Part shown: positions 42 to 27,775 of the stretch, in pieces
Layout: every line of letters begins with the position of its first letter
Numbering within the stretch: position 1 is the first letter of the stretch
The notes under the pieces: generated by a model
What the model saw: only the letters and a program-made list of their open reading frames with translations
Database searches by the model: none
What the model was told of the DNA's origin: nothing
Virus record (IMG/VR): IMGVR_UViG_3300045902_000773
Span: 1 to 27,775 of that record
Length of the DNA: 27,775 nt
Source: a virus
Strand: one strand, 5' to 3'
Translations under genes and position numbers: made by a program

Positions 42-51
42 CCGCCCAGAT

Positions 52-125
<74 letters not shown>

Positions 126-130
126 TTACC

Positions 131-1810: not shown

Positions 1811-1846
1811 GATCCGCTGGCTATCGCGCCACGCGGCGCGCGACTT

Positions 1847-1864: not shown

Positions 1865-1940
1865 TGATGCGGCGGCGATCGTGGCGGCCACTCTCTCCTG
1901 CACGGAGCTCACCGTGATCTCAAACACTCGGCCCGAGTCC

Positions 1941-2234: not shown

Positions 2235-2695
2235 CCACCAGCGACCTGGTGGACCGCTACGAGGAACTGCACGGCCACGCCTGCCGCACGCGCCACCGCG
2301 CCTATCTGATCCGCAAGATCGCGTGGCGCATACAGGCCAATGCGGAGGGCGACCTGAGCGAGCGAGCCAAACGGCGGGCGGCGGAACTCGCCGACGACGC
2401 CGAGATCCGGACGATGGCTCCCCGCTCGTACACCTCCCCGCCGCAGCCCGGCGAGATCCGCACCTGCGTGCGGTCGCTCGACCCGCGCGACCGCCGCGAT
2501 CCCCGGCTGCCGCCGCCCGGCTCCGCGATCGTCCGCCAGTACAAAGGGCGGACGATCCGGGTCATCGTGCTCGGGGACGGTGAAGGCTTCGAGTTCGACG
2601 GCGAGCGGTATGGCACGCTGTCGGTGATCGCCAAGAAGGTGACGGGCCAGCACATCAACGGGTACCGCTTCTTCGGATTGCGGGGTGGGCGATGA
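2180..2695 (+). CDS. DUF2924 domain protein of the recombinase cassette
   Basis: A 171-aa protein. The N-terminal half is helical and basic (RHRAYLIRKIAWRIQ, then LSERAKRRAAELADD). The C-terminal half holds the DUF2924 signature: G-S-AIVRQYKGRTIRVIVL, then FEFDGERYGTLSVIAKKVTG and the ending GYRFFGLRGG. The domain is found in phages and mobile elements, very often beside a serine recombinase; its molecular role is not established. An ATG exists at 2162, but ATG 2180 has AGAGGA seven bases upstream and begins the conserved part, so it is chosen. The stop overlaps the recombinase start as ATGA at 2692-2695, which argues for translational coupling and shared function. Confidence 0.88.
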   Translation: MSPTTDAIEQQLGELHRMTTSDLVDRYEELHGHACRTRHRAYLIRKIAWRIQANAEGDLSERAKRRAAELADDAEIRTMAPRSYTSPPQPGEIRTCVRSLDPRDRRDPRLPPPGSAIVRQYKGRTIRVIVLGDGEGFEFDGERYGTLSVIAKKVTGQHINGYRFFGLRGGR

Positions 2696-4290: not shown

Positions 4291-4751
4291 CGACCGTGGT
4301 GCGGACCATCCATATCACCCGAAAGGCCCGCCGCAAGCGCGTGGTCCTCGGCCCCGAGGCCCCAAAGGCCGAGCTACCCGGCCGTGTGCCACGCGTGGCC
4401 CGCCTACTGGCCTTGGCGATCAAGTACGACCGCCTGCTCCGGAAGGGCGTCGTTGCCGACCTCTCAGAGCTCGCCCGGCTTTGTCAGGTCACGCAGCCGC
4501 GGATGACGCAGATCATGAACCTGCTGCACCTTGCGCCGGATATTCAGGAGGAGATCCTGAACCTTCCGCCTGCGCTCAAAGGCCGCGACCTCGTTACCGA
4601 GCGCGACCTGCGCCCAATCGTGGCCATCACGTCATGGAGTCGGCAGCGAAGCGCTTGGCGGGCGATCCGCAGAGGCCAACCAGTCATTTGTCGCGTGGTC
4701 TGCTCCGGGTCGGATGCTGAAGGACATCGTCGACCGATGCCGCGACAATGA
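4287..4751 (+). CDS. Small HTH protein ending the recombinase cassette
   Basis: A 154-aa protein starting at GTG 4287, which overlaps the recombinase stop as GTGA and has GGAGGA a few bases before it. The N-terminus is strongly basic (RKARRKRVV). A helix-turn-helix is readable at about residues 58-80, SELARLCQVTQPRMTQIMNL, followed by LAPDIQEEIL, reminiscent of the KorB/ParB-type HTH. It may act as a directionality or copy-control partner of the recombinase; this is inference. The last 25 residues (from about GQPVICRVV) look non-native and run 68 bp into the 3' end of the convergent res gene, so an element boundary may have replaced the original C-terminus. Confidence 0.8.
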   Translation: MTTVVRTIHITRKARRKRVVLGPEAPKAELPGRVPRVARLLALAIKYDRLLRKGVVADLSELARLCQVTQPRMTQIMNLLHLAPDIQEEILNLPPALKGRDLVTERDLRPIVAITSWSRQRSAWRAIRRGQPVICRVVCSGSDAEGHRRPMPRQ

Positions 4752-7695
4752 ACTGAGCCGGATTGCTATCAGTGGCTATCGCCTTGAAGTGTGCCTTGCC
4801 GCATTGAATCTTGGCGTTCTCGGATACGCGCCGCGCATCGTCGAACAGCAGGGCTGACGACTTGGTTTCCACGACGAAGTACAGTCGCTCTTCCCCGTCA
4901 TGTTGCACGAGAACTGCCCAGTCGGGGTTGTACGCCCCGAGCGGCGTGGGCACGGTGAACCATCCGGGCAGCTTCGCGTAGACCTTGATGGCGGTGTTTC
5001 GCTCAAGCTCCTGGGCGAACGACTTCTCAACGTCGGAGTCGTACACGACGTGCTCATACGGGGCCTTCGAGGCCGCCAGCATGTTCCGCAGGTAGCCGGT
5101 CAGCTCTTCATTCTCGTAGAGCTCCTGGGCGTAATAGAACTCGTCGCCCAGGCGCTGGTACTTGATGCCGTCCACCAATGCCAGTCGCTTGCATCGGTTG
5201 ATCGCGTCCGCAGCCAACTCGATGAACTCCTGCGGGTTGCGGGAGAAATCATCCAGGCGACCGCTGTCAATCAGGATCTTGGCGATGCTCTTGCGGGTAA
5301 GGCGCGTGCGGTCCTGCAGGTCGGTCAGGATGTCAGGCAACTCGATGTCCGCCTCATTGAGAACAACGAGAGCGGAATCGCCCGACTCGGTCGCCTGCAC
5401 GCCGCCTCGGCCGATTGCGACGTCGGCCTTGCGCCACTGCAGCCGCGTCCTTGCGATCGGTGGTGCGTCGTCGATCGCCTTGCTGGCATCGGCGATCAAC
5501 TTGTCATTGTTGAAGTTGACGCGATATGTGGTCTTGTCACGGATGCGGGCCCAGAGCTGCTTGAACTGCTCGCTGTCCAGCACGGCTCGGCGGGCCTTGA
5601 TCGTCTGCCGCTCGTCGGCGTTCTTGATCTCCAGCTTGCCCGCAAGCTTGCGGAGGATCTCTACGACCTGGTCCTTCTGCCCGGTCTCGCCGACAACGGC
5701 AGGCAGGTCGACCGTCTTGTTCTTGATAGCCTGGCGCAGTGCGTCTTGCACCTTTCCGCGGGCGTCGATGTACCCCTTGGCCTTGAGGTGTTCCCAAACC
5801 TCTTTTGACTGTTCGACGCCGAGCACCGTGACCTTGCCGTCAGCGCTGGCGGTCGCGACCTGTGAGAACTGGTGCTGCTCAACGATGCCAAAGCGGATGC
5901 CCGTGTCTTCCTCGATCTCCTTCTGGAGGTTGTCGGCGAAGGCCTCGTAGCTTTCGTTGGCCACCACGGTCAGCGTGTTGACCTCGAACCCGCGGACGCG
6001 TTGCCCGTCTTGGTTCACGCACAGGCGGAGTCCGCGTCCGATTGACTGACGACGCTCCCGCTTGGTGCGGATGTCGCGGAGGGAGCAGATCTGGAACACG
6101 TTGGGGTTGTCCCAGCCTTCCTTCAGCGCCGAGTGCGAGAAGATGAACTTCAGCGGCGTGGAGAAGCTCAGCAACTTCTCCTTCTCCTTCATGATCAGGT
6201 TGTACGCCTTCTCGGCCGCGTCGCGACCGGTCTGGTTGCCCTCTTCCGTGTCCACGACTCGGCCGGTGCGCTTGTCGATCGAGAAGTACCCGTCATGTAC
6301 CTCCTCCGCGGCCTTCGAGAGGTCAACCTCCCTGAAGAGGGTGTCGTAGTCGGGGTGGCGGGCCCAGCGCTTGTACTCCTCCTCGAAGATCTTGGCGTAC
6401 TCGCCCTTCACGGGGTTGCCGTCTGCGTCGTACTGACGGTACTTGGCCACCTCATCGATGAAGAACAGACTGAGGACCTTGATCCCGAGCGGCCGGAGAC
6501 GCTTCTCCTTGTCCAGGTGCTCCTTGATGGTTCGCTTGATCATCTCTCGCTGGATGCTCGCACCATCGACGTCGCCCCACGACTCACCAGGCTTGAGGTA
6601 TTTCTCGCCACCCGGGTACCGCAGCTCCATGTGCTCGCGCCCTGCTGCCACACGGATCTCGCCGACGCGGCAGTTGGCGTACATCGCACGGCGCGTGGTC
6701 TGTTCGAGGTCGTCGCCGTCCTGGACCAAGACCTCCTTCCGCTCCACGCCGTGGAGGGTCTCGACGTCCAACTCCACTTTCGCCGAGATGACGTTTCGCC
6801 GGTTCTGCACGCCGATCAGGCGCACGAACGGTCGGTTGTGGGCGCTCTCCACGGTGGCGGCAGCCACCTCGATCTGCTTGACCAGTTTCCGCTCGTACGC
6901 ATCCACCGCATCCAGGCGGTACACCATGTGGTGCTTGTTCACATGCGTCGCCGAGTATCGCAGCGTGCAGAGTGGGTTCATCGCCCCGAGAGCTTCCTTT
7001 CCGCGCCCCTCAAGGCCGCCGTCCACGCTCTGGGGCTCATCCACGATGAGGATCGGTCGTGTGGCCTTGATCAGGTCGATTGGCTTCTCGCCGCCGGTCT
7101 TCTCGCTGTCCTTGTAGAGGTTGTTGACGTCCTTTTTGTTGATGGCCCCGACGGTGACCACCATGATCTGGATGCTGGCGCTGGTGGCAAAGTTGCGCAC
7201 CTGGCCGAGCCTGGCCGAGTCGTACAGAAAGTAGTCGAAAGGCACGCCCGCGTACAGCCCCTTGAAGTGCTCCTCGGTGATCTGCAGCGACTTGTACACA
7301 CCCTCCTTGATGGCCACGGACGGCACCACGATGACGAACTTGGTGAAGCCGTAGCGCTTGTTCAACTCGAAGATGGTGCGTAGGTAGACGTAGGTCTTGC
7401 CCGTGCCCGTCTCCATCTCGACGGTGAAGTCGCCCGACGCGAGCACGCTCGCCGGCGCAAGCCCGTTGCGGAGCTGGACGTCCTTCAGGTTCTCCAGCAA
7501 CTCGTCATCGAGGAGGGTGAGGCGGTTGCCCACGCCCAGATCGCTCTCGGCGAAACCCAGCCGCATCTGAGGGTTGGTCACATCGCGCACGACGGTGAAC
7601 TCGGTGCGGCAGATCTCCTGCCCGCGGAACAGGTCGCAGACGGACTCGATTGCCCGCAGTTGATAGTCGAGGTCTGGTTCGAAGTGAAGTTTCAT
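4684..7695 (-). CDS. res: Type III restriction enzyme, Res subunit
   Basis: A 1003-aa DEAD-type translocase/nuclease. Walker A is METGTGKT (94-101). The Walker B/DEAD-like motif is VDEPQ at about 218-222, followed by LRYSATH as motif III, and the second helicase half has ERRQSIGRGLRLCVN as motif VI. The C-terminal nuclease domain shows PDW (Asp925) and ETK (Glu943, Lys945), a complete PD-(D/E)xK site. In type III systems Res hydrolyses ATP, moves along DNA from unmodified sites, and cleaves when bound to Mod. The gene starts 19 bp after mod and is the last of the operon. Its 3' end overlaps the convergent HTH gene by 68 bp. The protein reads as intact. Confidence 0.95.
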   Translation of the reverse strand: MKLHFEPDLDYQLRAIESVCDLFRGQEICRTEFTVVRDVTNPQMRLGFAESDLGVGNRLTLLDDELLENLKDVQLRNGLAPASVLASGDFTVEMETGTGKTYVYLRTIFELNKRYGFTKFVIVVPSVAIKEGVYKSLQITEEHFKGLYAGVPFDYFLYDSARLGQVRNFATSASIQIMVVTVGAINKKDVNNLYKDSEKTGGEKPIDLIKATRPILIVDEPQSVDGGLEGRGKEALGAMNPLCTLRYSATHVNKHHMVYRLDAVDAYERKLVKQIEVAAATVESAHNRPFVRLIGVQNRRNVISAKVELDVETLHGVERKEVLVQDGDDLEQTTRRAMYANCRVGEIRVAAGREHMELRYPGGEKYLKPGESWGDVDGASIQREMIKRTIKEHLDKEKRLRPLGIKVLSLFFIDEVAKYRQYDADGNPVKGEYAKIFEEEYKRWARHPDYDTLFREVDLSKAAEEVHDGYFSIDKRTGRVVDTEEGNQTGRDAAEKAYNLIMKEKEKLLSFSTPLKFIFSHSALKEGWDNPNVFQICSLRDIRTKRERRQSIGRGLRLCVNQDGQRVRGFEVNTLTVVANESYEAFADNLQKEIEEDTGIRFGIVEQHQFSQVATASADGKVTVLGVEQSKEVWEHLKAKGYIDARGKVQDALRQAIKNKTVDLPAVVGETGQKDQVVEILRKLAGKLEIKNADERQTIKARRAVLDSEQFKQLWARIRDKTTYRVNFNNDKLIADASKAIDDAPPIARTRLQWRKADVAIGRGGVQATESGDSALVVLNEADIELPDILTDLQDRTRLTRKSIAKILIDSGRLDDFSRNPQEFIELAADAINRCKRLALVDGIKYQRLGDEFYYAQELYENEELTGYLRNMLAASKAPYEHVVYDSDVEKSFAQELERNTAIKVYAKLPGWFTVPTPLGAYNPDWAVLVQHDGEERLYFVVETKSSALLFDDARRVSENAKIQCGKAHFKAIATDSNPAQFIVAASVDDVLQHPTRSRPRDK

Positions 7696-7714
7696 GCGTG
7701 TGCATCTGCTCGAG

Positions 7715-9754
7715 TCACAGGCTCCGCACGTTCTTCAGGCCGTGCTGCTCCAGGATCGCGGCGACGTTCGTCTTCACCACGTCGTCGGCGAAGGCGTCGT
7801 CGCGGAAGATGACAACGGTCTCGCCTGCAGGATTCAACGACTTGTGCCACTGGGCGATGCCCATCGCAAGCGCCTCGCCGTCGGCGCGGGTGATCGTGGT
7901 GTCGAGGCAGGCGATGAGCGATCCGGCCCCGACGGAGTACACCGTCTTGCCAGCGATGGTCTTGGTCTCGATGGGGACGCACAGGTCGAGGCCTCGCTTG
8001 AGCAGAAGTTCATAGAGAATGTCCTGCTCATTGCAGTCCGTGCGGAGATTCTCCACGTGGGCTTCGAGCGACTCGGCAATCTCCTCGCGGCTCGGTTCCC
8101 ACTCACGGATGCTCGACGAGTCGAGCTTGAAGACGCGGAAGCCGAGGTCGCCGGCGAAGAGCGGATTCTCTTCCTTGATCTTTTTCGCGGCGCGGCGCAG
8201 GCGTTCCTTGGTCAACTCAGCGATGGTGCGGGGCTTGCCGAGTTTGTCGCAGAAGTCGGCGGCGGTCTTCTGGTCCTTGTTCTTCGGGTCGAGCGGCTCA
8301 GGAAGCTGGACGAGGATGTAGCGGCGATTGCCGCCGTCGGCGGCGTTCTGCGCCATGACGGCGTGGCCGGTAGTGCCGGAGCCGGCGAAGAAGTCGATGA
8401 CCACGTCCTCTCCACTCGTGAGCATCTCGACGATCTCCTGCAATACCGTTTCGTCCTTCGGGAAGTCGAAACAATCTTCCCCCATCAGGTCTCGAAGGCG
8501 CTTGGTTGCAGCGCGGCCGTCTTGGTAAAAGACACTGTACGGCGCTTGATTCTCCTGATCCCTCAGGTACGCTTTCAAACAGGGCACTTTTGATTCGTCT
8601 GTGCCGAACTGGACACGATCATCGGCAATCCATGCCTGCATCTTCTGTGGATCGGGTGTTATCCAGCCGCGTGCAGGAATCTTTACCGGCTTCTTCGTAA
8701 TTGGGTGCAGAACCTCGTATTTGGGACCACCGCCCCCTGGCCATGAAATATCCGCTGGGAAGTAGACTCCACGGGCGTCGGCGTGGTTGTAGTGCTTGTG
8801 CGCCTTAGCCGGATGAGAATCGGCGAGACCCTTGTACCAATCTTTCATTGCAGCCGTGATGGCCGCGTAGTCATCCCCGTGTTCGCGCTTGAGCCGTTCA
8901 TATTGTGCATAGATGTCTTCCAGCCCCTTCTTCCGCTGCCGCCATTCGATCTTCTGCTCGGTCAGGAACCCCGCGTCGCGGGCATAGCAAACGATGTATT
9001 CATGCGATACCGAAACGAGCCGAGAGTCGTTCTTGCGCCCCGCCGCCCATACCATGTCAGCGATGAAGTTCTCGCCGCCAAACACATCGTCCATGGCGAG
9101 CCGCAGGCGGGCCTGTTCTGCTTCGTCGCAGGACACGAACATGGCGCCATCGCGCGTCAACAAACCTCTCGCCAACCTTAGCCGCGGATACATCATATTC
9201 AGCCAGTCCGTGTGAAACCGCCCACTGGCTTCCGTATTGCTGCTGATCTTTCGCCCACCCTCCACCTGCCCGGTCAGCTCCAGGTAGTTCCGGATGTTGT
9301 CCTTGAAGTCGTCGGGATAGACGAAGTCCTTGCCCGTGTTGTACGGCGGATCGATGTAGATAAGCTTCACTTTGCCAAAGTAGCTCTTTTGCAGCAGCTT
9401 CAGCACCTCCAGGTTGTCGCCCTCGATCATCAGGTTCTGCGTGGTGTCCCAGTCCACGCTCTCCTGCGGGCAGGGGCGCAGCGTGCCGGTGGAGGGCGTG
9501 AGCGCGAGTTGCCGCGCACGGCGCTTGCCGTGCCAGTTGAGGCCGTACTTCTCGTCGGCATCGGTGACGGTCTTGTCGCCCACCAGCGCCTTGAGCACGT
9601 CCACGTTCACGGCGGCGCCGTCCGGCCCCTCGGTCACCAGCTCGGGAAACAGCGCCTTGAGCCGGGCGATGTTTTCGGCGACAACGTCGGCAGAGGTGGC
9701 GAGCGGATCGGAGGCTGTGATCTTGCGGATGGTCGGGGTGCCGTGAGGGGTCAT
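7715..9754 (-). CDS. mod: Type III DNA methyltransferase, Mod subunit
   Basis: A 679-aa beta-class adenine N6-methyltransferase. The catalytic motif IV DPPY lies at 135-138 (IYIDPPYNTGKDF) and the AdoMet-binding motif I FAGSGTT at 456-462; the order IV before I defines the beta class. The variable segment between them (about 240-390) should hold the target-recognition domain. The C-terminal part (from about 490) is the type III Mod extension that contacts Res. It methylates the recognition site to protect self DNA and gives Res its specificity. The start at 9754 overlaps the DUF262 gene stop as ATGA, and res follows after 19 bp. No simple repeat tract is seen, so phase variation is not evident. 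Confidence 0.95.
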   Translation of the reverse strand: MTPHGTPTIRKITASDPLATSADVVAENIARLKALFPELVTEGPDGAAVNVDVLKALVGDKTVTDADEKYGLNWHGKRRARQLALTPSTGTLRPCPQESVDWDTTQNLMIEGDNLEVLKLLQKSYFGKVKLIYIDPPYNTGKDFVYPDDFKDNIRNYLELTGQVEGGRKISSNTEASGRFHTDWLNMMYPRLRLARGLLTRDGAMFVSCDEAEQARLRLAMDDVFGGENFIADMVWAAGRKNDSRLVSVSHEYIVCYARDAGFLTEQKIEWRQRKKGLEDIYAQYERLKREHGDDYAAITAAMKDWYKGLADSHPAKAHKHYNHADARGVYFPADISWPGGGGPKYEVLHPITKKPVKIPARGWITPDPQKMQAWIADDRVQFGTDESKVPCLKAYLRDQENQAPYSVFYQDGRAATKRLRDLMGEDCFDFPKDETVLQEIVEMLTSGEDVVIDFFAGSGTTGHAVMAQNAADGGNRRYILVQLPEPLDPKNKDQKTAADFCDKLGKPRTIAELTKERLRRAAKKIKEENPLFAGDLGFRVFKLDSSSIREWEPSREEIAESLEAHVENLRTDCNEQDILYELLLKRGLDLCVPIETKTIAGKTVYSVGAGSLIACLDTTITRADGEALAMGIAQWHKSLNPAGETVVIFRDDAFADDVVKTNVAAILEQHGLKNVRSL

Positions 9755-11430
9755 GCGGTGGTGCCTCCGGGCGCGGTCAGCAGTTGGGCGAACTTCTCTC
9801 GGATCAGGTCCTTGCGGGCGGCGATGAAGTCATCGAAGCGATCCAGCTTCCAAAGTTCCTTGTCGCGGGGGATCAGGTGACGATCAAGGTATGCTTCGCT
9901 CTTGTCGGCGAACCAGACGTCGGGCATGGTGTCACCCTTGCCGCCCGCCCCGTTCTCTTCGCGGGTGAGGAGCATGCAGTTGGCGAGCTGATCGCGGACC
10001 GGCTTTCGGTAGCGCACCACGGTGCGCTTGCCGGTCTCGGGGTTGGGGTCTCGGATCGCCGCCAGCACGGACTGGGGGAAGATGTGGTCGATCTGTGGCA
10101 GGTTGTTCTCGTACGCGGGCGTGTGGTTGAAGTCTCGGTACCAGAGGTTGAAGAGCAGGTGGATGGCGTCTGAGCCGTAGCCGAGCTGCCACAGGCGCTC
10201 CTCGGTGAGCTCCAGCGGGCGGTTGGCGGTGCGGATGACCTTGAACGCTTCCGCAAGGTCGAACTTGCCAACTTCCTTGAATCGGCGGCAGAGGCCGTCG
10301 ATGACCGTGTCGGGCTGGCCGGTGAATGACGCGGCCAGGGAGCAGCGGAGCAAATACTCATCGAGCCCGGCCGCACGCTTCCACTCGTCGGGATAATGGA
10401 ATCGGACGTAGACCAGGGGTATGAGCACCAGGTAGCTGGGCAGCGCCTTGTCGCACTGGATGAACGTTTTGCTTCGCACAAAATCGAGCACATCCTGGAC
10501 CGCGCCGGCGATCTCGTGCCACCGGCGCTCGATGTCCTCACGCACGCCGGGCTTGCGGAACTTCTCGACCTCGTAACGAGCGCCCTGCCCTAGCAAAACC
10601 AGGCATGTCTTCAGGACGAAGTCACGGTCGAAGGCGAAGCCGTGGGTGTTGAGGGAGCCAAGCAGCTCCTCCATGCGGTCGTCGGCGACCTCCCAGGTGG
10701 CGCTGAGCAGCGAGAAGAGCAGGTCGGACTTGCCGAGCTTCGTGCCGCCGGAGTTGGCGCGGATGAACACCTCGACGACGTCGTCCTCGGAGTACAGCTG
10801 GGGGTTGTCGATGCTGTCAAGCTCCTGGTAGGTGATCGCCTCGTCCATCTTGAACGTGCGATCGACCAGGTCGAGATGGTCGTCGATCTTGGGCAGATCG
10901 GCGCTCGGCACCTCGTGGACCTGTCGCAGATCCTCAACGATCTCACGCTTCTTTTTGCTGGTGAACACAAGGTCCTTGAAGCGGACCCACGGGAACGCCG
11001 GGGCGGCGGGCATGAACTTGAAGCGGTACTTGACGTCGTCGGGCGCGGCGAGCTGGCCGCTGAGGATGTCGAGATAGAGCTCCCGCCCCTCGTAGCTGCC
11101 GCACAGGCCGATGAACAAGCTCTGCAACCGCTGCTGCCCATCCAGCACTAGGCACTTCTTCTTAGAGTCCTCCGGGACGTAGAAGTCGCTCAGGCGGAGC
11201 GACTCCTTCCAGTTGTCGATGAACTTCCGCCGCCGGATGCCGCTGGTGGTCTTCCAGATGAGCAGGGTGCTGATCGGGTACTCGCGCAGGATCGAATCGA
11301 ACAGGCGGCAGATCTGCTCCTCGCTCCAGACGAACGGGCGCTGGATGTTGGGCAGCCAGAAGCCGCCCTCTTCATCTGGGTTGTTCAGGAACCCCACGAT
11401 CTTCCGGATTGTCTGTTTTTGGTTCTTCAT
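9751..11430 (-). CDS. DUF262/DUF1524 GmrSD-like nuclease
   Basis: A 559-aa protein combining a DUF262 domain (PNIQRPFVWSEEQI at 27-40, DGQQR at 97-101, ParB/Srx-like NTP-handling fold) with a C-terminal DUF1524-type HNH region (IDHIFPQSV from residue 447, then QLANCMLLTREEN). This is the architecture of GmrSD-like type IV restriction enzymes, which attack modified phage DNA, and of several accessory defence proteins. His449 of the DHIFPQ motif is the likely catalytic residue. It starts 13 bp after the DUF4391 stop and overlaps mod by ATGA, so it is embedded in the RM operon. One possibility is that it handles DNA whose modification blocks Res; that is inference. Confidence 0.88.
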   Translation of the reverse strand: MKNQKQTIRKIVGFLNNPDEEGGFWLPNIQRPFVWSEEQICRLFDSILREYPISTLLIWKTTSGIRRRKFIDNWKESLRLSDFYVPEDSKKKCLVLDGQQRLQSLFIGLCGSYEGRELYLDILSGQLAAPDDVKYRFKFMPAAPAFPWVRFKDLVFTSKKKREIVEDLRQVHEVPSADLPKIDDHLDLVDRTFKMDEAITYQELDSIDNPQLYSEDDVVEVFIRANSGGTKLGKSDLLFSLLSATWEVADDRMEELLGSLNTHGFAFDRDFVLKTCLVLLGQGARYEVEKFRKPGVREDIERRWHEIAGAVQDVLDFVRSKTFIQCDKALPSYLVLIPLVYVRFHYPDEWKRAAGLDEYLLRCSLAASFTGQPDTVIDGLCRRFKEVGKFDLAEAFKVIRTANRPLELTEERLWQLGYGSDAIHLLFNLWYRDFNHTPAYENNLPQIDHIFPQSVLAAIRDPNPETGKRTVVRYRKPVRDQLANCMLLTREENGAGGKGDTMPDVWFADKSEAYLDRHLIPRDKELWKLDRFDDFIAARKDLIREKFAQLLTAPGGTTA

Positions 11431-11443
11431 GGGGGGTCCTGAT

Positions 11444-12211
11444 TCACAGTCGTTTGCGAGCCTCGTCGTACCGCGTCTGCAGTTGCCGGAGTTGGAGATT
11501 CAGATCGACCTGTCGTGCCATCTGCCGCTCCTTGGCGGCGGCGGAGCGGAGCGACTTGATCTGCTTGTCGAGATCGGCGCACGCTGCGAGCGCTGCTTGA
11601 CGCTCCGCGGCGAGTTCGGAGGAGCCGGATTCAACGAACACACCCGTGATCCGGGCGGCTTCGACCGCGAGGAGTGCGTCGATCCATGAGCGGTACAGCG
11701 CGTACAGGTTCGGCTGGGGCCGTCGGGACACCATCAGCGTGTTGAGCAGAGCCTCGATGGTTGCGGACGCGGTGGTGGTCAGGTCCGTGGCGACGATGTC
11801 GCCATCGAGCACGACCCGGCCAGACTCGCCCTGCGACCAGCGCTTGTCCGCCGCGCTGAGAACGAATGGACCATCGAGTTGGCTGACGATCAGAAGGAGG
11901 TGGTACGGGATGGCACGGTGAACGAGCTCGAGCAGTCGCGTGGGCTTGCAATCGGGGCGGATGGTGAGCGCGAGCACGATGAGCTCGACGCACTGTCTTG
12001 AGCCATCCTCGAATGACGCGACGCCGACTGTGTTCGGCTTGAGGCTTGCGACCCATCGGAGCTCTTCAACGCCCGACTCGATCAGCCGTTTGTCGGCGGC
12101 GGTGGGCGCACCGTGCTCAACCAGGAGCGTCTTGGGGACGCGCTGGCCGACGAGGGCCGCGGCGGGGAGGCCGAGGGCTTCGATCACTCGCTGGGGCCCA
12201 ATCGACGTCAC
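11444..12211 (-). CDS. DUF4391 domain protein with C-terminal coiled coil
   Basis: A 255-aa protein resembling DUF4391: the motif VPKTLLVEHGAPTAADKRLIE, then EELRWVASLKPNTVGV and a beta-rich middle (YHLLLIVSQ). The last 65 residues are charged and heptad-like (ELAAERQAALAACADLDKQI, ending LRQLQTRYDEARKRL), which suggests a coiled coil for assembly. DUF4391 has no established biochemistry, but it recurs beside SNF2-type helicases and type III Mod/Res genes. The GTG start at 12211 overlaps the helicase stop as GTGA, so the two proteins are probably made in equal amounts and may form a complex. Confidence 0.8.
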   Translation of the reverse strand: MTSIGPQRVIEALGLPAAALVGQRVPKTLLVEHGAPTAADKRLIESGVEELRWVASLKPNTVGVASFEDGSRQCVELIVLALTIRPDCKPTRLLELVHRAIPYHLLLIVSQLDGPFVLSAADKRWSQGESGRVVLDGDIVATDLTTTASATIEALLNTLMVSRRPQPNLYALYRSWIDALLAVEAARITGVFVESGSSELAAERQAALAACADLDKQIKSLRSAAAKERQMARQVDLNLQLRQLQTRYDEARKRL

Positions 12212-15200
12212 GCAGTTGCCTCCGACAGAGGCGCAGTGGCGGGGGCAGAAGCATCGGGAAGCACGACCAGGAACGCGAGGACCTCGAAATCATCGACACC
12301 GGCGACCTCGCCTCGGCGGACATGGGTGCCCCCCGGCGTGAAGAGACTCGCGATGGCCCGCTCGTCGTTCTTGCCCAGGATGGATGTGGCGGCGGACGCG
12401 AAGAGCGTCCGAGTATGCCCCATGTCCTTGCCGTGCTTGGTCTCGCGGTCAAATCGGTTGCATGCGTCGGCATCGGGGAGCGACTTCCCGATGCACAAAC
12501 GCTTGAGACGATCGAGAATCTGCTTTGCCCGCGTGTACGGGATGAGAACGGTTCCGTTGTCACCAACATGGACCAAGTAGTGCGGGGCGAGCGGATAACC
12601 CGGCTCGGGGGCGACCTTTGCAGCGTCGTCCTCTGCGCGAAGGCAGAAGATGATGCCTGGTTCGATGTCGGCGTCGGAAGAGGTTGTCACCGCGAACCTG
12701 CCGGGGGGCTCCGTCTCGAGGCGGTTGGGGTGCTGTCGGGCGTACTCCGCAAGATCGATGCGGAAGTCGGTGAGCGTGAGATCCGCGATGCTGACGCCGG
12801 TGGAGAGGTCTTCGAGGTCGATGACCGCATCCTGAAGCTTGAGGAGCTGTGCTCGACGGTACTCGAGGTCACGCATCATGTTGCCGGAATCAGCCTCGAT
12901 CAGGTTCTCCTCTCCGGTAGCGGAAACGTCCAATAGGACCATCCGGCCGCTTACGCGCTGCTCGAGGTTGATGTACTCCTCCAGCTGCATGTTGGGCCAG
13001 AAGTTGACCAACTGGATCTGAGAGTTGGACGATCCGAGACGATCGATGCGGCCGAAGCGCTGGATGATGCGGACGGGGTTCCAGTGGATGTCGTAGTTGA
13101 TGACACAGTCGCAATCTTGAAGGTTCTGTCCTTCAGAGATGCAATCGGTGCCGATGAGCAGGTCAATTGTCCCCTCCTGAGCGAGGTCCTCGGGGCGTTC
13201 CTTCGAACGCGGGGAGAAGGCAGTGAGAATCGACACAAAGTCCTTGCGGAGAGCTGGCAGCGTGGTTTGGTTGCGCCCCGTTCCCGTGACCACAGCTGAG
13301 TCGATGCCCAGTGCCTGCTTCGCCCAAGGCGCAAGGTTCTGGTAGAGATACTCGGCCGTATCTGCAAACGCCGTGAACAGCAAAATCTTGCGGTTGCCGG
13401 GATTGAAGGGCTCGCTGCACTTCGCGAGGATGAACTCCTTGAGCTTGACGAGCTTGGCGTCGCGCTCAGCCGAAACCAGCCGGGCCACCGACGCAAGCGT
13501 GGACAGGCGATTTCGGTCCTCGATGAGGTCCTGCCGCCAGCGAACGAGGTCTACGTCCGAGAGCAGGACCTTGACCTTGCGGCCGACGAGAAGACTCTCG
13601 AACGCCGAGTCATCGATGTCAACGTCCTCGATGCTGACCTCTTCGACCTCGTCACCCTTGGCGTCGATGCGAGCGAGCATTGACTCGACATCGTTCAGTT
13701 GTCGGTGAACTGTCAGCGCGAACGAGTTGACGGAACTCTCAAGCCGCTTCAGCACGTTGACCCGGAGCAGCTGGATCAGGCTCTCTTCGCGATCGACCTG
13801 ACGCCAGTAGCCCCTCCCACCCGACACCTCGGTGCTGTACTTGCGGTCGTAGGCCTCCTGCTTGTGTGCGAGAACGTACCGCAGCGGCGCGTACGCCGAG
13901 AGGTTCAGGCGTCGGATCTCCTGGTTGAGTTCGCGGATGGAGCGAAACTCGCCCGCGGTATCGATGTCGGCCTTGACGTTGACCGGCTTGCGCCGGTCCG
14001 GAAAGCGGCCGGTCTCGCTCGTTCCGTAGTACTTCTCAATGTGCCTTCGCGAGCGTGCAATAGTCAATAGATCGAGGAGCTTGAAGTAGTCGAAACCCAG
14101 CATCTCCACCAGGCGGCCGGGCGTGCGATCCACAGGATCGAGCTCCAGCCAGCGGTTGAACTGCTTCTGGGCCAAGCGGGTCGTGGAATCGATGCTCGCT
14201 ATGCCGTGGTCGGCGAGAGCTGTATCGTCCCCCTCTGTCGCGAACGCGATCTGATTGCGCAAGTCGGCGAGGCGGTTATTCACCGGCGTTGCCGACAGCA
14301 TCAGAACGCGCGTCCTGACGCCCTCCTTGATGATCTTCTTCATCAGGCGGTCGTACCGTGTCATCCCGCCCTGTCGGGGGCTCTTCTTGTTGCGGAAGTT
14401 GTGAGACTCGTCGATGACGACGAGGTCGTAGTTGCCCCAGTTGACGTGCCCGAGGTCGATGTCTCCCGAAGTGCCGCCGTCGCGTGACAGATCCGTGTGG
14501 TTCAGCACGTCGTAGTTGAAACGATCTGCAGCGAGAATATTGCGCCGGTCGTTCGTCGCGTAGAGCGTCCAGTTGTCGCGCAGACGCTTCGGGCACAGAA
14601 CCAGGACACGGTCGTTTCGAAGTTCGTGATACTTGATCACAGCGAGCGCCTCGAAGGTCTTGCCGAGGCCAACGCTGTCGGCGATGATGCAGCCGCCGAA
14701 GCGGTTGAGCTTGTCGATTGCGCCAACGACTCCATCTCGCTGGAACTTGTAGAGCTTCTTCCAGATGATGGTCTTGCGGATGCCAGTAGCGGCGTTGACG
14801 ACGCGATCTTCGTCCAGCGCGTCGCCACGGCTGCCGAGCAAATGGTGCAGCATGACCGCATAGACGCTCAGCGGATCCTGGTGCTGGCTGATCCGATCAA
14901 GCAACGAGATGAGCTCGGCCTTCGCCGCACCATCGGCCCCCAGGGAGGCCCACTGAAGGTCGAACCACTGAGCGATCATCGCAGCTTCAGCCGGGCTCTC
15001 GGACGCCTGAATCAGGCTGAGCGGATTGCCCGGCGACAAGCCAAGGCCGGCGCTACTGATGGAGAACGCACCGAGAATAGCCTGAGCAGGCTCGTTGGTA
15101 CCGAGCCTCGCGACCAACGCGCCCTGTGGAACACCTTTCGGCGCTTGCCGAACGGCGGCCACTTTCTCGAGCGTGGCCGCGAGTGATCTCGCCAAAGATG

Positions 15201-15438
15201 CTGCCTCAAAGCGGTTCCGTCGGCTGCGGTCGGCCGCGTCGCCCAGAAGCGCGGCGGACTGGGGCTGTGCTGGAATGATGGCTCGAATTGCCCGCATTCC
15301 GCTCATCGCGCTGACGAGCTCGCCGAGAGCGAACATCGACAGCTGTGGAGACGCGAAGTCGAGCTGCGCCACCTGCGATGCGCAACGCTGCACAACGTCG
15401 AAGACCCGGTCATTTCCAGCGTTGGGTACGACCCTCAC
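12208..15438 (-). CDS. SNF2-family helicase of the defence operon
   Basis: A 1076-aa superfamily 2 ATPase. Walker A is DSVGLGKT (254-261), the DEAH-type motif II is DESH (343-346), motif III is LSATPVNNR, and motifs V/VI are SEGQNLQDCDCVINYD and RIIQRFGRIDRLG. Residues 1-170 look like a degenerate phospholipase-D-like module: the segment around FSISSAGLGLSPGN and AQWFDLQW resembles the second PLD half, but no HxK motif is visible. SNF2-type ATPases with this layout occur in phage-defence clusters, where they probably translocate on DNA. The GTG at 15438 has a strong GGAGG six bases upstream, which fixes the start. It is the first gene of the five-gene operon. Confidence 0.9.
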   Translation of the reverse strand: MRVVPNAGNDRVFDVVQRCASQVAQLDFASPQLSMFALGELVSAMSGMRAIRAIIPAQPQSAALLGDAADRSRRNRFEAASLARSLAATLEKVAAVRQAPKGVPQGALVARLGTNEPAQAILGAFSISSAGLGLSPGNPLSLIQASESPAEAAMIAQWFDLQWASLGADGAAKAELISLLDRISQHQDPLSVYAVMLHHLLGSRGDALDEDRVVNAATGIRKTIIWKKLYKFQRDGVVGAIDKLNRFGGCIIADSVGLGKTFEALAVIKYHELRNDRVLVLCPKRLRDNWTLYATNDRRNILAADRFNYDVLNHTDLSRDGGTSGDIDLGHVNWGNYDLVVIDESHNFRNKKSPRQGGMTRYDRLMKKIIKEGVRTRVLMLSATPVNNRLADLRNQIAFATEGDDTALADHGIASIDSTTRLAQKQFNRWLELDPVDRTPGRLVEMLGFDYFKLLDLLTIARSRRHIEKYYGTSETGRFPDRRKPVNVKADIDTAGEFRSIRELNQEIRRLNLSAYAPLRYVLAHKQEAYDRKYSTEVSGGRGYWRQVDREESLIQLLRVNVLKRLESSVNSFALTVHRQLNDVESMLARIDAKGDEVEEVSIEDVDIDDSAFESLLVGRKVKVLLSDVDLVRWRQDLIEDRNRLSTLASVARLVSAERDAKLVKLKEFILAKCSEPFNPGNRKILLFTAFADTAEYLYQNLAPWAKQALGIDSAVVTGTGRNQTTLPALRKDFVSILTAFSPRSKERPEDLAQEGTIDLLIGTDCISEGQNLQDCDCVINYDIHWNPVRIIQRFGRIDRLGSSNSQIQLVNFWPNMQLEEYINLEQRVSGRMVLLDVSATGEENLIEADSGNMMRDLEYRRAQLLKLQDAVIDLEDLSTGVSIADLTLTDFRIDLAEYARQHPNRLETEPPGRFAVTTSSDADIEPGIIFCLRAEDDAAKVAPEPGYPLAPHYLVHVGDNGTVLIPYTRAKQILDRLKRLCIGKSLPDADACNRFDRETKHGKDMGHTRTLFASAATSILGKNDERAIASLFTPGGTHVRRGEVAGVDDFEVLAFLVVLPDASAPATAPLSEATA

Positions 15439-15656
15439 GGAAGCCTCCGGGTGGATGGTTGCTGCGGACTTTTCTGACCAGCGGGAGAGAAGACCGTTGC
15501 AGGCCCAAACGCGGGCGCGGATCGAAGGTCAGGAGGCGAGCACGATCCGACGTCGTCCGGTCTCGGGTTTCGGGCGTCGAATAGTGGGGTGAGCGACAGC
15601 ATGGGAAGGATGTCCGAACTCGCCGATCTCGGTAATCGCACCGCGGCAGGTGCGGT
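15439..15656. promoter_or_regulatory. Divergent intergenic region between RM operon and XRE cassette
   Basis: No gene fits here. The ribosome-binding site of the helicase (minus strand, GGAGG at about 15445-15449) and the promoter of the XRE gene (plus strand, from 15657) flank the stretch, so the minus-strand operon promoter should lie within it. I could not identify its boxes confidently. Confidence 0.5.
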
Positions 15657-15685
15657 TTGACCCGCCGGTTATGTCCATGTACAGT
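15657..15685 (+). promoter_or_regulatory. Sigma-70-type promoter of the XRE-ImmA cassette
   Basis: TTGACC (15657-15662) and TACAGT (15680-15685) are separated by exactly 17 bp, close to consensus. The spacer contains GCCGGTTATG (15664-15673), a word that recurs twice elsewhere in the window, so it may hold an operator for the XRE protein. A start near 15692 means the in-frame ATG at 15671 cannot be used, which favours ATG 15716. Confidence 0.7.
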
Positions 15686-15715
15686 AAACAGGGAACGAGC
15701 GAGCGTCAAACAGCC

Positions 15716-16084
15716 ATGACCGTCCAAAAGCCAAAGTTCGGCACATTCATCCGCGACCGCCGCACGGCCAAAGGGTACAGCCTGCGCCGCTTCGCCGAGC
15801 TTGTCGGCATCAGCCCGACGTACCTGTCGCACGTCGAGCAGGACAAAGTGGACTCGCCGCCGACCGCTGACCGCATTCAGAAAATGGCTGAGTTGCTGGG
15901 TGAGAGTCCGGACGAGCTCTTCGCGATGGCGGGCCGCGTCCCCGAAGACCTGCCGAAAATCATCCAGAGCCAGCCGGAGGCCATGCCCGCCCTGCTGCGA
16001 GCCGCAAAGGGCCTCACGCCCGAGCAACTCAAGAAGCTGCAGGATCAAGCGTCCAAGATGCGGAGGGAGGGCGATCCGTCGTGA
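15716..16084 (+). CDS. XRE-family transcriptional regulator
   Basis: A 122-aa protein with an N-terminal Cro/cI-type helix-turn-helix at about residues 9-70: FIRDRRTAKGYSLRRFAELV, then GISPTYLSHVEQDK as recognition helix region, and IQKMAELLGESPDELF. The C-terminal 50 residues are helical and hydrophilic, probably for dimerisation. It overlaps the ImmA/IrrE gene by GTGA. In such pairs (ImmR/ImmA of ICEBs1, DdrO/IrrE of Deinococcus) the peptidase cleaves the repressor on a stress signal, and the same logic is likely here. The start follows from the promoter position. Confidence 0.92.
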   Translation: MTVQKPKFGTFIRDRRTAKGYSLRRFAELVGISPTYLSHVEQDKVDSPPTADRIQKMAELLGESPDELFAMAGRVPEDLPKIIQSQPEAMPALLRAAKGLTPEQLKKLQDQASKMRREGDPS

Positions 16085-16788
16085 GTGGTCGCGGGGCCAT
16101 CACAGATGTGTCGTTCCTGCCGGAAGTCCGCATTGAGCGCGACGCGGATGTCCTCGTTGCTGAATATGCACAGCGTTGCGGTGCGACCGTCGTCGCGCCG
16201 GTGCCCGTTGAGGACATCCTCGAACTGCACCTCGGCCTGACGTTTGCCATCGAGGACCTCGCGGCGCTGTTCGGGACCGATGGCGTGCTCGGCGCGATCT
16301 GGTTCAACGAGAAGCTGGTCCGGATCGACACCCGGCTCGATCCTTCCGAGAACTCAACGCGGCTCGGGCGATACCGGTTCACGCTGGCGCACGAGATCGG
16401 GCACTGGCGACTTCACCGCTCGTACTACCGCGAGGATCCGACGCAGGCGGCCCTGTTCGATGGGCGCGGGCAGCCCGCGGTCGTGTGCCGCGCCGGAGAG
16501 AAGAAGATCCCGGTCGAATGGCAGGCCGACACGTTTGCCAGCTACCTGCTCATGCCCAAGTCGCTCGTCGTAGCAGCGTGGAAGGACTGGCGCGGAAGCC
16601 TGGACCCCGTGGTCCTCGCTGATCTCGCTCCCGTGTCCGCCGCCGACGGTCGCGACACGGCCGACGCCACACTCGATCGTTTCTCGAAGCCGCTGGCCGA
16701 GCGGTTTGAAGTGTCCGCCGAGGCGATGCGCATCCGCCTCGAGAAGCTCGGCCTGCTGATGCGCGAACGACCCAACACGCTGTTCTGA
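16081..16788 (+). CDS. ImmA/IrrE-family zinc metallopeptidase
   Basis: A 235-aa protein. The zinc site HEIGH lies at 104-108 in the typical context FTLAHEIGHWRLH, and the third ligand is probably Glu146 in VEWQADTFASYLLMP. Before it, IWFNEKLVRIDTRLD is the family's strand preceding the active site. The C-terminus (FEVSAEAMRIRLEKLGLL) is the usual short helical motif. The GTG start overlaps the upstream XRE stop, so the two are translationally coupled. The likely substrate is that repressor, whose cleavage would switch on the cassette, the facing RM operon or the prophage genes. All catalytic residues are present. Confidence 0.93.
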   Translation: MSGRGAITDVSFLPEVRIERDADVLVAEYAQRCGATVVAPVPVEDILELHLGLTFAIEDLAALFGTDGVLGAIWFNEKLVRIDTRLDPSENSTRLGRYRFTLAHEIGHWRLHRSYYREDPTQAALFDGRGQPAVVCRAGEKKIPVEWQADTFASYLLMPKSLVVAAWKDWRGSLDPVVLADLAPVSAADGRDTADATLDRFSKPLAERFEVSAEAMRIRLEKLGLLMRERPNTLF

Positions 16789-19237: not shown

Positions 19238-19828
19238 ATGACCAGCCGCAGCGATGTCGTGTCCCACCCGTTCACCGCCGACCTGATCCGCCGCAAGGCG
19301 ATGTTCCTCAGCCGCAGCGTTGGCTTCGCCCGCGCGGAAGAGGAGGACCTGCGTCAGGAGATGGCGCTGTTCCTGCTCACCAAGGCCGATCTCTTCGACG
19401 CCAGCCGGGGCTCGATCCAGGCGTTCGCCACCTCGGTCGTGACGAGTTGGATCGGGATGGAGGTCCGCCGCCGTAAGGGCGTCAAGCGTCGCGCCGCTGG
19501 GCGCACGCTGTCCCTGGACGAAGAGCAGCCGGGACACCACTCGCACCGCAGTTCCATCGGCGATCGCATGAACGACGCCGACGGCGGCCGCCGCACCGGC
19601 ACAACGCCCCACACTCCCGCCGAGGAAGCCGCGATCCGCGACGAGGCGGCGCTCGTCGACGCCATGCTCACTCCCCGCGAGCGGATCTTGCTCCGGGACG
19701 TCGCCGAACTCGGCATCACCGGCGCTGCCAAGAAGCGCAAGGTTTCGCGGTGGATTCTGCTGCCGCGCCTCGAAGCGATCCGCGCTCGCATCCTCGAATC
19801 CGCCACATCGCTCTCGGAATTTGCATAA
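19238..19828 (+). CDS. Phage-type sigma-like transcription factor
   Basis: A 196-aa protein laid out like a two-domain sigma-70/ECF factor. Residues 15-80 resemble region 2 (ADLIRRKAMFLSRSVGF, then EEEDLRQEMALFLLTKA, the usual DLxQE helix, and FATSVVTSWIGMEVRRRKG). An acidic/Gly linker of about 50 residues follows. Residues 143-183 form a region 4-like HTH (LTPRERILLRDVAELGITGA, then AAKKRKVSRWILLPRLEAIR). It could direct RNA polymerase to the phage-module genes downstream. The start is fixed by GGAGG 5 bp upstream, itself buried in a hairpin. Sequence divergence from housekeeping factors is large, so a non-sigma DNA-binding role is possible. Confidence 0.75.
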   Translation: MTSRSDVVSHPFTADLIRRKAMFLSRSVGFARAEEEDLRQEMALFLLTKADLFDASRGSIQAFATSVVTSWIGMEVRRRKGVKRRAAGRTLSLDEEQPGHHSHRSSIGDRMNDADGGRRTGTTPHTPAEEAAIRDEAALVDAMLTPRERILLRDVAELGITGAAKKRKVSRWILLPRLEAIRARILESATSLSEFA

Positions 19829-25173: not shown

Positions 25174-27420
25174 ATGAGCGGCGGCCCGTCCAACGTGCTC
25201 GACGCGGCGAGGTCATACCTCGCGCGCGGCTACGCGCCCATCCCGCTCCCCGCGGGCGAGAAGGCTCCGAAACTGAAGGGCTGGACATCGCTGCGCCTGG
25301 CCGAGCCCGATCTGCCGGCGCACTTCAACGGCTCGCCCGCGAGCGGCAACATCGGCATCCTGCTCGGCGAGCCGAGCGGGTGGCTCGTGGATGTGGACCT
25401 GGACTGCTCGGAGGCGGTCGAGCTCGCGCCGAGTCTCCTGCCGCCGACGCCGGTGACTACCGGGCACGCGCGCCGCCCCCGGTCGCACTGGTGGTACATC
25501 TGCCACGGCGCGGTGACCCGCAAGCATTGCATGCCCGGGACGAACGAGAGCCTGGTCGAACTCCGCAGCACGGGCACGCAGACGGCCGTCGGGCCGAGCG
25601 TCCATCCCGACGGCGATGCTTACGACCCGGTCGAGGGGGAGCCCGCCGTGGTGGACGCCGAGACGCTCGTCGGGGCGGTGGCGGCCCTTGCAGAAGCCAT
25701 CATCGAGCGGCGCGGCGGGCGCAAGGAACGTCCCCGTTCACAGCCAGAGGCGCTAGGAACGCCGACGTTCCCAGCGGGCGATGCCCTGCTCCGCCGTGCC
25801 GCGGCGTACCTCGACCGCATCCCGCCCGCGATCTCAGGCTCGGGCGGGCACAGCCAGACGTATGCCGCCGCGACCGCGATGGTGCATGGGTTCGGGCTCG
25901 ACCCCGAGACGGCGTTCGGGCTGCTGTGGGAGCGGTACAACCCGCGATGCCAGCCGCCGTGGTCGGAGAAGGAGCTGCGGCACAAGGTCAGCGACGCGGC
26001 CAGCAAGCCGCACGACAAGCCGCACGGGTGGTTGCGCGATGCCGAGAAGCCCGAGGACATGGGAGGCGTCGATCTCTCTCGCCTGGTTGTGCGGGGCCGC
26101 GCGCCGGTGACGGATGCGCCCTCGCCCCCTGCGCCTGACGACCCCGGCCTGCTCCCGCCCGAGGCGCTCCGCGTCCCGGGCTTCGTCGGCGAGGTGATGG
26201 ACTACTGCCTCGCCACCGCGCCCTACCCCAGCCAGACGCTGGCGTTCTGCGGGGCGCTGGCGCTGCAGGCGTTCCTGGCGGGGCGCAAGGTCCGCGACCC
26301 CGGCGACAACCGCACCAACATGTACCTGCTCGGGCTGGCGCACTCTTCTTCGGGCAAGGACTGGCCCCGAAAGATCAACGCCCGCGTGCTCCAGGCCGTG
26401 GACCTCGGGAGCGGGCTGGGCGACCGACTCGCCTCGGGCGAGGGCGTGCAGGACGCGCTCCACGGCACGCCGTCGATGCTCTTCCAGACCGACGAGATCG
26501 ACGGCCTGCTGCAATCGATCAACCGCGCCCGCGACGCGCGGTTCGAGTCGATCATGGGAACGCTGCTGACGATGTACTCGGCGTCCAACTCGGTCTTCCC
26601 GATGCGCCGCAAGGCCGGGCAGAGCGAGCCGGGCGTGATTGACCAGCCGTGCCTGGTGCTCTTCGGGACGGCGATCCCGAACCACTACTACGCCGCGCTC
26701 TCGGAGCGGATGCTCACCAACGGCCTGTTTGCGCGCATGCTGATCCTGGAGTCCGGCCCGCGCGGCGCAGGCCAGGAGCCGACCGTCAGCGACCTGCCCG
26801 AGCGCGTGCTCGCGACGGCCAAGTGGTGGTCGGACCTGCGCCCCGGGCCGGGCAACCTCGCCAACGCCCACCCCACGCCGCGCGTCGTGCCGCACACCGA
26901 CGAAGCCCGGGCGCTGCTCGTCGAACTCCGCCGGTCAGCCGAGCAAGCGTACGGCGAGGCCGAGGGCCGGCGCGACGCGGTGGCGACGACCGTGTGGGGG
27001 CGCGCCAGCGAGCAGACCCGGAAGCTGGCGCTGATCTACGCCGTCAGCGAGAACCACGCCGAGCCCACCATCGGCGTTGAGGCGGTACGGTGGGCGTCGC
27101 GGCTAGTCATGCACCAGACCAGGCGGATGCTCTTCATGGCCGCCAGCCACGCGGCCGAGACACCCTTCGACGAACTCGCGCTGCGCGCGATGCGGAAGAT
27201 CCGCGAGGCTCCCGAGGGGGCGCTGCCGCACAGCGTGCTGCTCAAGCGGATGAAGATGGACTCCCGCTCGTTCCACGATCTCATCGACACGCTCGTGCAG
27301 CGCGGCGACGTGCTGGCGGAGTCGGCGGCGACGGCCGGTCGGTCGGCCCTGATCTACCGCTTGGCCGAGAAGGATGGTGAAGGAAGGGTGAAAGAAGAGG
27401 GGGCAGAATGCGGGCTGTAG
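25174..27420 (+). CDS. Prim-Pol / DUF3987 phage replication protein
   Basis: A 748-aa fusion. Residues 8-180 form a bifunctional primase-polymerase (Prim-Pol) domain: ARGYAPIPLPAGEKAPKLKG, the metal motif VDVDLD (Asp73, Asp75), SHWWY and VELRSTGTQTAVGPSVHPDG. Residues 200-290 look like a PriCT-type primase C-terminal segment. From about 335 a DUF3987-type ATPase region follows, with a weak P-loop GLAHSSSGKD (387-396) and LFQTDEIDG (436-444). The C-terminus is a winged-helix-like region. The protein probably primes and drives replication of the mobile element. The Walker A is unusual (SSSGKD instead of GxxxxGKS/T), which is common in DUF3987. Iteron-like repeats begin inside its last codons. 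Confidence 0.93.
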   Translation: MSGGPSNVLDAARSYLARGYAPIPLPAGEKAPKLKGWTSLRLAEPDLPAHFNGSPASGNIGILLGEPSGWLVDVDLDCSEAVELAPSLLPPTPVTTGHARRPRSHWWYICHGAVTRKHCMPGTNESLVELRSTGTQTAVGPSVHPDGDAYDPVEGEPAVVDAETLVGAVAALAEAIIERRGGRKERPRSQPEALGTPTFPAGDALLRRAAAYLDRIPPAISGSGGHSQTYAAATAMVHGFGLDPETAFGLLWERYNPRCQPPWSEKELRHKVSDAASKPHDKPHGWLRDAEKPEDMGGVDLSRLVVRGRAPVTDAPSPPAPDDPGLLPPEALRVPGFVGEVMDYCLATAPYPSQTLAFCGALALQAFLAGRKVRDPGDNRTNMYLLGLAHSSSGKDWPRKINARVLQAVDLGSGLGDRLASGEGVQDALHGTPSMLFQTDEIDGLLQSINRARDARFESIMGTLLTMYSASNSVFPMRRKAGQSEPGVIDQPCLVLFGTAIPNHYYAALSERMLTNGLFARMLILESGPRGAGQEPTVSDLPERVLATAKWWSDLRPGPGNLANAHPTPRVVPHTDEARALLVELRRSAEQAYGEAEGRRDAVATTVWGRASEQTRKLALIYAVSENHAEPTIGVEAVRWASRLVMHQTRRMLFMAASHAAETPFDELALRAMRKIREAPEGALPHSVLLKRMKMDSRSFHDLIDTLVQRGDVLAESAATAGRSALIYRLAEKDGEGRVKEEGAECGL

Positions 27421-27597
27421 ACACATACACACACTTCTTTCTCTCTTTCACCTTCTTACCCCCACCCCCGCGTGCGCGTATGTGTGTCTGCACGCACGCG
27501 CGAGGGGGGGTGAAAGAAGAAAGAAGGGAAAGAAGCCCCTGCGCACGCGCCAGCGGGGTTTTCGTGGGTGAAAGGAGGGGCACGGGGGTGAAAGAAG
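27376..27597 (+). repeat. GGTGAAAGAAG iteron-like repeats, candidate origin
   Basis: GGTGAAAGAAG occurs at 27387-27397, 27509-27519 and 27587-27597, with one-mismatch copies at 27376-27386 and 27567-27577 and an inverted partial copy at 27445-27452. Such 11-bp repeats next to a primase gene suggest an origin bound by the replication protein; unproven. Confidence 0.5.
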
Positions 27598-27775
27598 TCG
27601 GTGGCGGGTCGCCCAGTAGGTACTACCCCGCCCGAGTCGCGTTGCTACGCCGCCGGGAACAGCCGCAGGGGGAGACTGAGTTTGTTGCGCCTGTCCGAGC
27701 GCCGGGCCTGGGGGGCTGGGGGGTTGCCCACGTTGGCGCAGGGCGGGACGTGGGCGGGAGGGCGGGGGTGGGGCG
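27421..27775. other. Non-coding tail with purine/pyrimidine tracts and inverted repeats
   Basis: No gene is supported here. A pyrimidine-rich stretch (27433-27470) is mirrored by a purine-rich stretch (27503-27535). ACACATAC (27421-27428) pairs with GTATGTGT (27478-27485). GGCGGGT near 27602 faces ACCCCGCC around AGTAGGTACT. The last 100 bases are G-rich. See the iterons and terminator for the recognisable parts. Confidence 0.5.
27536..27562 (+). terminator. Possible intrinsic terminator after the primase gene
   Basis: CCCCTGCG at 27536-27543 pairs imperfectly (two small bulges) with the 27548-27558 arm around a CACG loop and is followed by TTTT (27559-27562). It lies 116 bp past the primase stop. 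Imperfect pairing keeps the confidence low. Confidence 0.45.

Follow-up and report, generated by a model that had tools for sequence, protein, structure and literature searches.

The repeats at the 3′-end of a phage Prim-Pol gene raise the question of what they are for. The window analyzed here is the whole of an IMG/VR virus record, 27,775 bases long, in which the replication module comprises a Sak4-like ATPase, a DUF669 single-strand binding protein, a helicase and lastly a 748-aa Prim-Pol. Little is known of the origins and initiators used by phages of uncultured Planctomycetota. We consider it likely that the repeats constitute the origin, or at least the core of the origin, from which a tailed phage or prophage of Planctomycetota replicates.

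The repeated 11-mer is present in five copies at one mismatch or fewer, all on the + strand (Table 1), against 0.34 expected, and none of 100 dinucleotide-preserving shuffles reached five; the whole window holds no further copy. The site thus contains a cluster of short repeats beyond chance, as iteron-type origins do. The three exact and two one-mismatch direct copies described in the first-pass annotation were all located, its inverted partial copy was recovered as CTTTCACC within the longer arm CTTCTTTCTCTCTTTCACC, and copies 1 and 2 lie inside the Prim-Pol ORF, in keeping with its statement that the repeats begin in the last codons of the replication gene. Whole phage records with the same iteron type as the window have their copies gathered in one cluster, with a few stray single one-mismatch matches elsewhere. 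All three exact copies in host genome G024 fall within its two prophage loci, and other host genomes have a few iteron copies elsewhere. The motif GGTGAA presumably resembles the iteron of phage P4. An ORF at 27408 was rejected as coding: it was found in the window and in all close relatives but L064 (12 of 13), with lengths running from 33 to at least 133 aa and with frames that are broken. An RNA family search at gathering score returned only a tRNA, far from the repeats, and what a lax threshold added, one short match and otherwise hairpins of miRNA-like kind, scored well under the gathering cut-offs.

Table 1. Positions of the features discussed, numbered from the first base of the window.
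Feature	Position	Strand	Remark
tRNA-Met	51-126		extreme left end
Large serine recombinase	2692-4290		near tRNA-Met
Defence-like gene block	4684-16788
Small ORF	19238-19828		weak sigma-70 region 2 match, E 7e-4, under Pfam cut-off
Initiator gene, AEP Prim-Pol, 748 aa	25174-27420	+	PF09250, E 1.1e-14; Pfam Prim-Pol residues 12-156
Predicted recognition helix codons, residues 697-710	27262-27303	+	DSSP on AF2 model
Wing-tip codons 720-723 (T-A-G-R)	27331-27342	+	residue 723 best predicts iteron 3′ half
Iteron copy 1, GGTGAAGGAAG	27376-27386	+	one mismatch; inside Prim-Pol ORF
Iteron copy 2	27387-27397	+	exact; inside Prim-Pol ORF
AT-rich 40-bp peak, candidate unwinding element	27418-27457		between iteron sets; 0.62 vs 0.35 background
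Inverted iteron arm, CTTCTTTCTCTCTTTCACC	27434-27452	-	kept in close relatives
Inverted partial copy, CTTTCACC	27445-27452		within the inverted arm
C-tract, then alternating purine/pyrimidine GC-rich tract	27459-27503		inverted-repeat loop; kept in relatives
Right arm, iteron copy 3 then AAAGAAGGGAAAGAAG	27508-27536	+
Iteron copy 3	27509-27519	+	exact; in right arm
Iteron copy 4, GGTGAAAGGAG	27567-27577	+	one mismatch
Iteron copy 5	27587-27597	+	exact
Second conserved noncoding element, ~85 nt	27617-27697		3′ of iterons

The arrangement of the site is more elaborate than the simple run of direct repeats first described: an AT-rich peak separates two iteron sets, and one set includes an inverted arm. 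In all 70 loci with at least four GTGAA anchors (70 of 97 loci, the other 27 having fewer than four), the 40-bp stretch richest in AT fell between anchors, against 64% for random placement, and the median share of random segments from the same locus with an equally high peak was 3%. The layout of iterons, AT-rich peak, and inverted plus direct iterons persists across lineages. In its sequence, the site has the AT-rich region beside iterons that is typical of iteron-type origins, and also the plan of PICI and SaPI origins, in which such a region lies 3′ of rep with an iteron set on either side. The asymmetric tracts and inverted repeats noted earlier are also borne out, by polypyrimidine, alternating, and polypurine tracts and by a DNA fold of z -5.1, which none of 200 shuffles equaled in stability. 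The ungapped inverted repeat of the window scored 9 against a shuffle maximum of 9, showing no excess; the inverted repeat is imperfect. Across loci, the inverted repeat exceeded all 10 shuffles in 73 of 97, with a median loop of 52 nt, and in L009 the counterpart of the inverted arm belongs to a perfect 20-bp inverted repeat. GC skew, a check put forward with the first reading, lent the origin no support, with no switch at the site in seven phage contigs.

Scans with the Prim-Pol yielded 57 viral loci and 44 loci in genome contigs, the latter mostly Phycisphaerae and other Planctomycetota as labeled in the records. In 13 of 13 relatives whose Prim-Pol is 82 to 87% identical, the two gene-end copies, inverted arm, GC-rich loop, and copies beyond are all kept, so that the copies and layout, conservation of which had been proposed as a check, are intact rather than absent or scrambled. 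Farther relatives carry different units in the same place, such as GGTGAAACGTG, GGTGAATCTTC, GGTGAAGGAAG, and GTGAAAAGTTA, as well as TTGAAAGATT, GACAATAAG, and GGACAAAAG. Segments of 450 bp were also scanned without bias for repeated 9-mers in 93 loci, six others with too little downstream DNA being skipped. The segment following Prim-Pol had the highest repeat density of its locus in 63 cases and ranked within the top 1% in 66; in 30 of the 93 the site was not the top-ranked segment. By eye, no such repeats were seen with four distant phage primases (Vibrio H188, Sinorhizobium NV1.1.1, Synechococcus Ssp-JY40, and Pseudomonas PaMx42).

Adjacency to the initiator gene, a feature of iteron-type origins, holds apart from six loci in which the element is displaced. 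In this Pirellula group, there are no copies directly behind the Prim-Pol gene, and a TTTCACC arm, an AT-rich stretch, an alternating tract, and GGGGTGAAA copies instead lie 1.5 to 3.8 kb downstream, as seen in the displayed sequence of L030, L034, L086, and L102 and in the motif positions of L085 and L104. The element has identical spacing in L085, L086, L102, and L104, which are therefore likely near-copies; L103 showed no copy, and the L084 sequence is truncated. The DNA separating Prim-Pol from the displaced element holds, in L034, an ORF (9594-10661) that weakly matches Mrr-like restriction enzymes and, in L102, the ORFs of 336-3900, and this region may be an insertion spot adjoining the origin. 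Because displaced copies survive at such distances, the element is separable from the gene end, and we rejected a terminator or 3′-UTR reading of an element that persists behind other ORFs. The same persistence bears on the proposal that the inverted-arm stem-loop is itself the origin or a transcription terminator, the repeats being merely its arms. The fold stability, the excess of inverted repeats over shuffles, and a loop length near that of pRN1, given as a 21-nt stem with a 58-nt loop in the available text of PMC4234260, all fit such a structure. However, the ungapped arms of the window do no better than shuffles, conservation extends to direct copies beyond the stem, among them those within the ORF, no terminator-like site was found on the + strand, and the repeat unit tracks a residue of the Prim-Pol wing (see below). 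We regard the stem-loop proposal as quite improbable.

The Prim-Pol is the proposed initiator. It matches the PHROG 3022 DNA primase at E 1e-54, and an AF2 (AlphaFold) model built from 50 family members has a mean pLDDT of 84.8. Residues 335-658 are modeled as an MCM-like AAA+ domain that aligns best with the structures of MCM subunits (Z 17.5, rmsd 3.7, 266 aligned), suggesting that AEP and MCM-like AAA+ are joined in one protein as in BcMCM, the MCM part being assigned by fold. The model ends in a C-terminal winged helix (wHTH; residues 664-730) with wing strands at 713-719 and 724-730 and, between them, the turn of the wing at 720-723. A separate model of the C-terminal part gave VIA-align Z scores of 9.7 to 11.3 to winged helices, with Z-alpha, MarR-like, and other winged helices tied as matches, so that no conclusion is based on the Z-alpha likeness. 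By sequence, the C-terminal profile matched no PDB chain at E 1, and a wHTH search at E 5 gave three weak matches to solved structures. DUF3987 is found in the C-terminal parts of 26 of 42 family members and is absent from the window's own protein.

A second strongly conserved noncoding element follows the iterons, with the pattern ATAGGTACTTCC ... CGCGGGAACAGCCGC ... GACAGAGTTTGTTT ... GTCCG, which occurs within 700 bp of the Prim-Pol stop in 65 of 139 loci, compared with 3 matches in 933 kb upstream. It is a candidate promoter, leader, or packaging site. In L286, L321, and L146 it ends just ahead of the next gene, a placement that, together with the likeness of the C-terminal fold to MarR-like repressors (Z about 10), could indicate that the repeats are operators through which the Prim-Pol winged helix or a phage repressor controls transcription of the downstream operon rather than replication. 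The sites nevertheless lie 3′ of the gene of the wing-matched protein, away from its promoter, they flank the AT-rich peak in all 70 loci with at least four anchors, and no sigma-70-like promoter was found at the site, although this last is a weak test. Control of transcription is, in our estimate, an unlikely role for the repeats.

The putative origin and Prim-Pol vary together. With helicase similarity fixed, iteron similarity followed wHTH similarity (partial r 0.58, 0 of 2000 permutations) in a test in which residues 731-735 overlap iteron-encoding DNA; the reverse partial correlation was 0.09 (464 of 2000 permutations). A sliding-window and per-column Mantel test peaked at residues 731-740, and because it was noisy, without a sharp peak, and those residues are encoded by iteron DNA, we replaced it with a class-based mutual information (MI) scan of 354 columns, up to residue 729, in 68 loci with a classifiable iteron. 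Residue 723 ranked first against iteron class (z 20.9), followed by 720 (14.1), 722 (10.0), and 649 (6.8), and the mean MI z was 4.9 for residues 713-729, 1.4 for 691-712, and 0.1 to 0.4 in the blocks before 691. Exchange of a linked block can yield part of the correlation, since the iterons and the wHTH codons are adjacent on the DNA, but the concentration of signal in the wing speaks against simple linkage. It is possible that C-terminal codons and iterons are exchanged together, which would itself fit a functional pair. The iteron 3′ half matched residue 723 as GTGAAnSAAG with Arg (40/40), nCTTS with Trp (7/7), and the ACGTG type with Ser/Thr (8/8); the units GTGAAAGAAG, GTGAATCTTC, and GTGAAACGTG accompany the Prim-Pols of the window, of L087 with a Trp wing, and of L023 with a Ser wing, respectively.

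The pairing rule was set on 40 dereplicated loci among 66 of the LLKRMK type, the main wHTH type. In this training set, for which iteron classes were drawn up after viewing the wings, so that the held-out test alone is free of that influence, Arg wings had GTGAAnSAAG in 16 of 24 loci (six unclassifiable, two nGAYn). Among Trp wings, GWP went with nCTTS (4/4) and GWH once each with nCATS and nCTTS; the remaining wings were GSA with the ACGTG type (3/3), TK[PS]GRF with nGAYn (6/6), and GPK with AAGTW (1/1). For the held-out test, 218 loci were fetched with three other members, 184 of which had the C-terminus and 50 of which were used, all with helicases more than 8% divergent from those of the training loci and of one another; loci were excluded as too near a training locus or one another, or as having too little helicase. 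Arg wings had nSAAG in 24 of 28 held-out loci (three with none, one nGAYn) and the other loci of the wHTH type in 0 of 10 (Fisher p 2e-6, uncorrected for kinship). A Trp wing again went with nCTTS, as did L212, which the pattern placed outside the wHTH type, and PRAG[ST] wings (L125, L132, and L171) went with ACGTG, the pattern having been widened afterwards. On a helicase-domain tree of 79 loci, a minimum of 22 changes was counted for the wing class and of 23 for the iteron class, and among the 68 loci bearing both traits, seven independent supported pairs showed wing and iteron changing in the same direction in 6.5 on average and in the opposite direction in none.

The covariation suggests that the initiator may bind the iterons, and the original view of the site as origin-like gains from it as well as from the intact layout in close relatives. 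The tie between repeat unit and Prim-Pol wing residue from lineage to lineage also weighs against the repeats being terminase-binding sites (cosB or pac) for packaging, a role that the terminase large subunit gene ~4 kb downstream in L061 and L071, beyond where the window stops, would accommodate but that we hold to be highly improbable. We lean, by a modest degree, toward residue 723 at the wing tip being a specificity switch, in which Arg, Trp, Ser/Thr, and Lys/Asn would each select their own iteron 3′ half through many switches, amounting to a readable code for AEP-MCM origins.

Geminivirus Rep is an unrelated rolling-circle Rep. In its iteron-related domain, iteron bases vary with specific Rep residues, and specificity has been switched by short recombinant segments, as given in the available text of PMC2974675. 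The DNA-binding domain of Vibrio cholerae PLE RepA covaries with its origin and has been repeatedly swapped (PMC8263062, available text), but this RepA_N initiator is without predicted primase or helicase activity (PMC7145576) and has another type of repeat. The available portions of PMC7581432 and PMC6092414 do not describe a single wing residue that sets specificity in SaPI or PICI. For AEP proteins, origin recognition by a C-terminal winged helix, through recognition helix and wing, was proposed earlier (PMC5862659).

We infer a sequence of events in which copies of Prim-Pol would bind the iterons through the C-terminal winged helix, with the conserved GTGAA half read by the recognition helix and the variable 3′ half by the wing tip. 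Once assembled on both iteron sets, the complexes would load the MCM-like helicase onto the intervening AT-rich stretch and melt it, and initial primers would be made by the primase domain as the origin fires.

Our preference for an origin draws on the fact that known origins of like architecture, those of SaPI Rep, Cch2, and pRN1, adjoin the 3′-end of the initiator gene. According to the available parts of the respective reports, the iterons of SaPI Rep and Cch2 lie directly 3′ of the initiator-helicase gene and are bound by its C-terminal domain (PMC7581432), and PICI origins have an AT-rich region flanked by two iteron sets (PMC6092414). The window resembles SaPI/PICI and SCCmec Cch2 in having iterons directly 3′ of the initiator gene, resembles PICIs further in the two sets around an AT-rich region, and differs from these systems in the primase fused to an MCM-like AAA+ domain, the terminase gene that relatives L061 and L071 have of their own, and an iteron set with an inverted arm around an alternating GC-rich loop. 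For ORF904 of the Sulfolobus plasmid pRN1, the accessible text of PMC4234260 describes a ~100-bp stem-loop just 3′ of the gene that is needed for replication, and mentions a similar stem-loop 3′ of a phage replication gene. ORF904 shares with the window's Prim-Pol an AEP primase, a helicase, and a C-terminal winged helix, but its helicase is described as SF3 and its origin as without iterons, whereas the window has iterons and a helicase model whose best matches are MCM subunits, although that helicase may also be related to SF3. The same text describes phage P4 alpha as a primase-helicase whose winged helix binds origin repeats; unlike that of the window's protein, the P4 alpha primase is of the bacterial (Toprim) type. 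BcMCM, from a Bacillus cereus prophage, fuses an AEP primase to an MCM helicase, and the available text of PMC4538821 describes no origin or iterons for it, in contrast to the Prim-Pol of the window. The Prim-Pol family studied here would seem to merge the iteron plan with the stem-loop plan.

Elsewhere in the window, the left end with its tRNA-Met and serine recombinase is possibly an integration end. The defence-like gene block holds a type III restriction enzyme and methyltransferase, a HEC-05-like protein, a large SNF2-type helicase protein, and a regulator/peptidase pair with capH/capP-like matches. The small ORF with the sigma-70 region 2 match is possibly a phage sigma factor and might use the second conserved element.

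As far as literature searches show, the Prim-Pol family, its origin plan, and a wing-tip residue that predicts the iteron are new; searches by title and the start of the abstract, with few subscription journals covered, returned no paper on these origins or on a wing/iteron code. Within the family, at least 22 natural changes of specificity in a single protein-DNA pair are available for study, together with prediction from a single residue. If our reading is true, the position of the origin, and perhaps origin compatibility, would be predictable from sequence, and the joint change of initiator and iterons would become a directly testable question.
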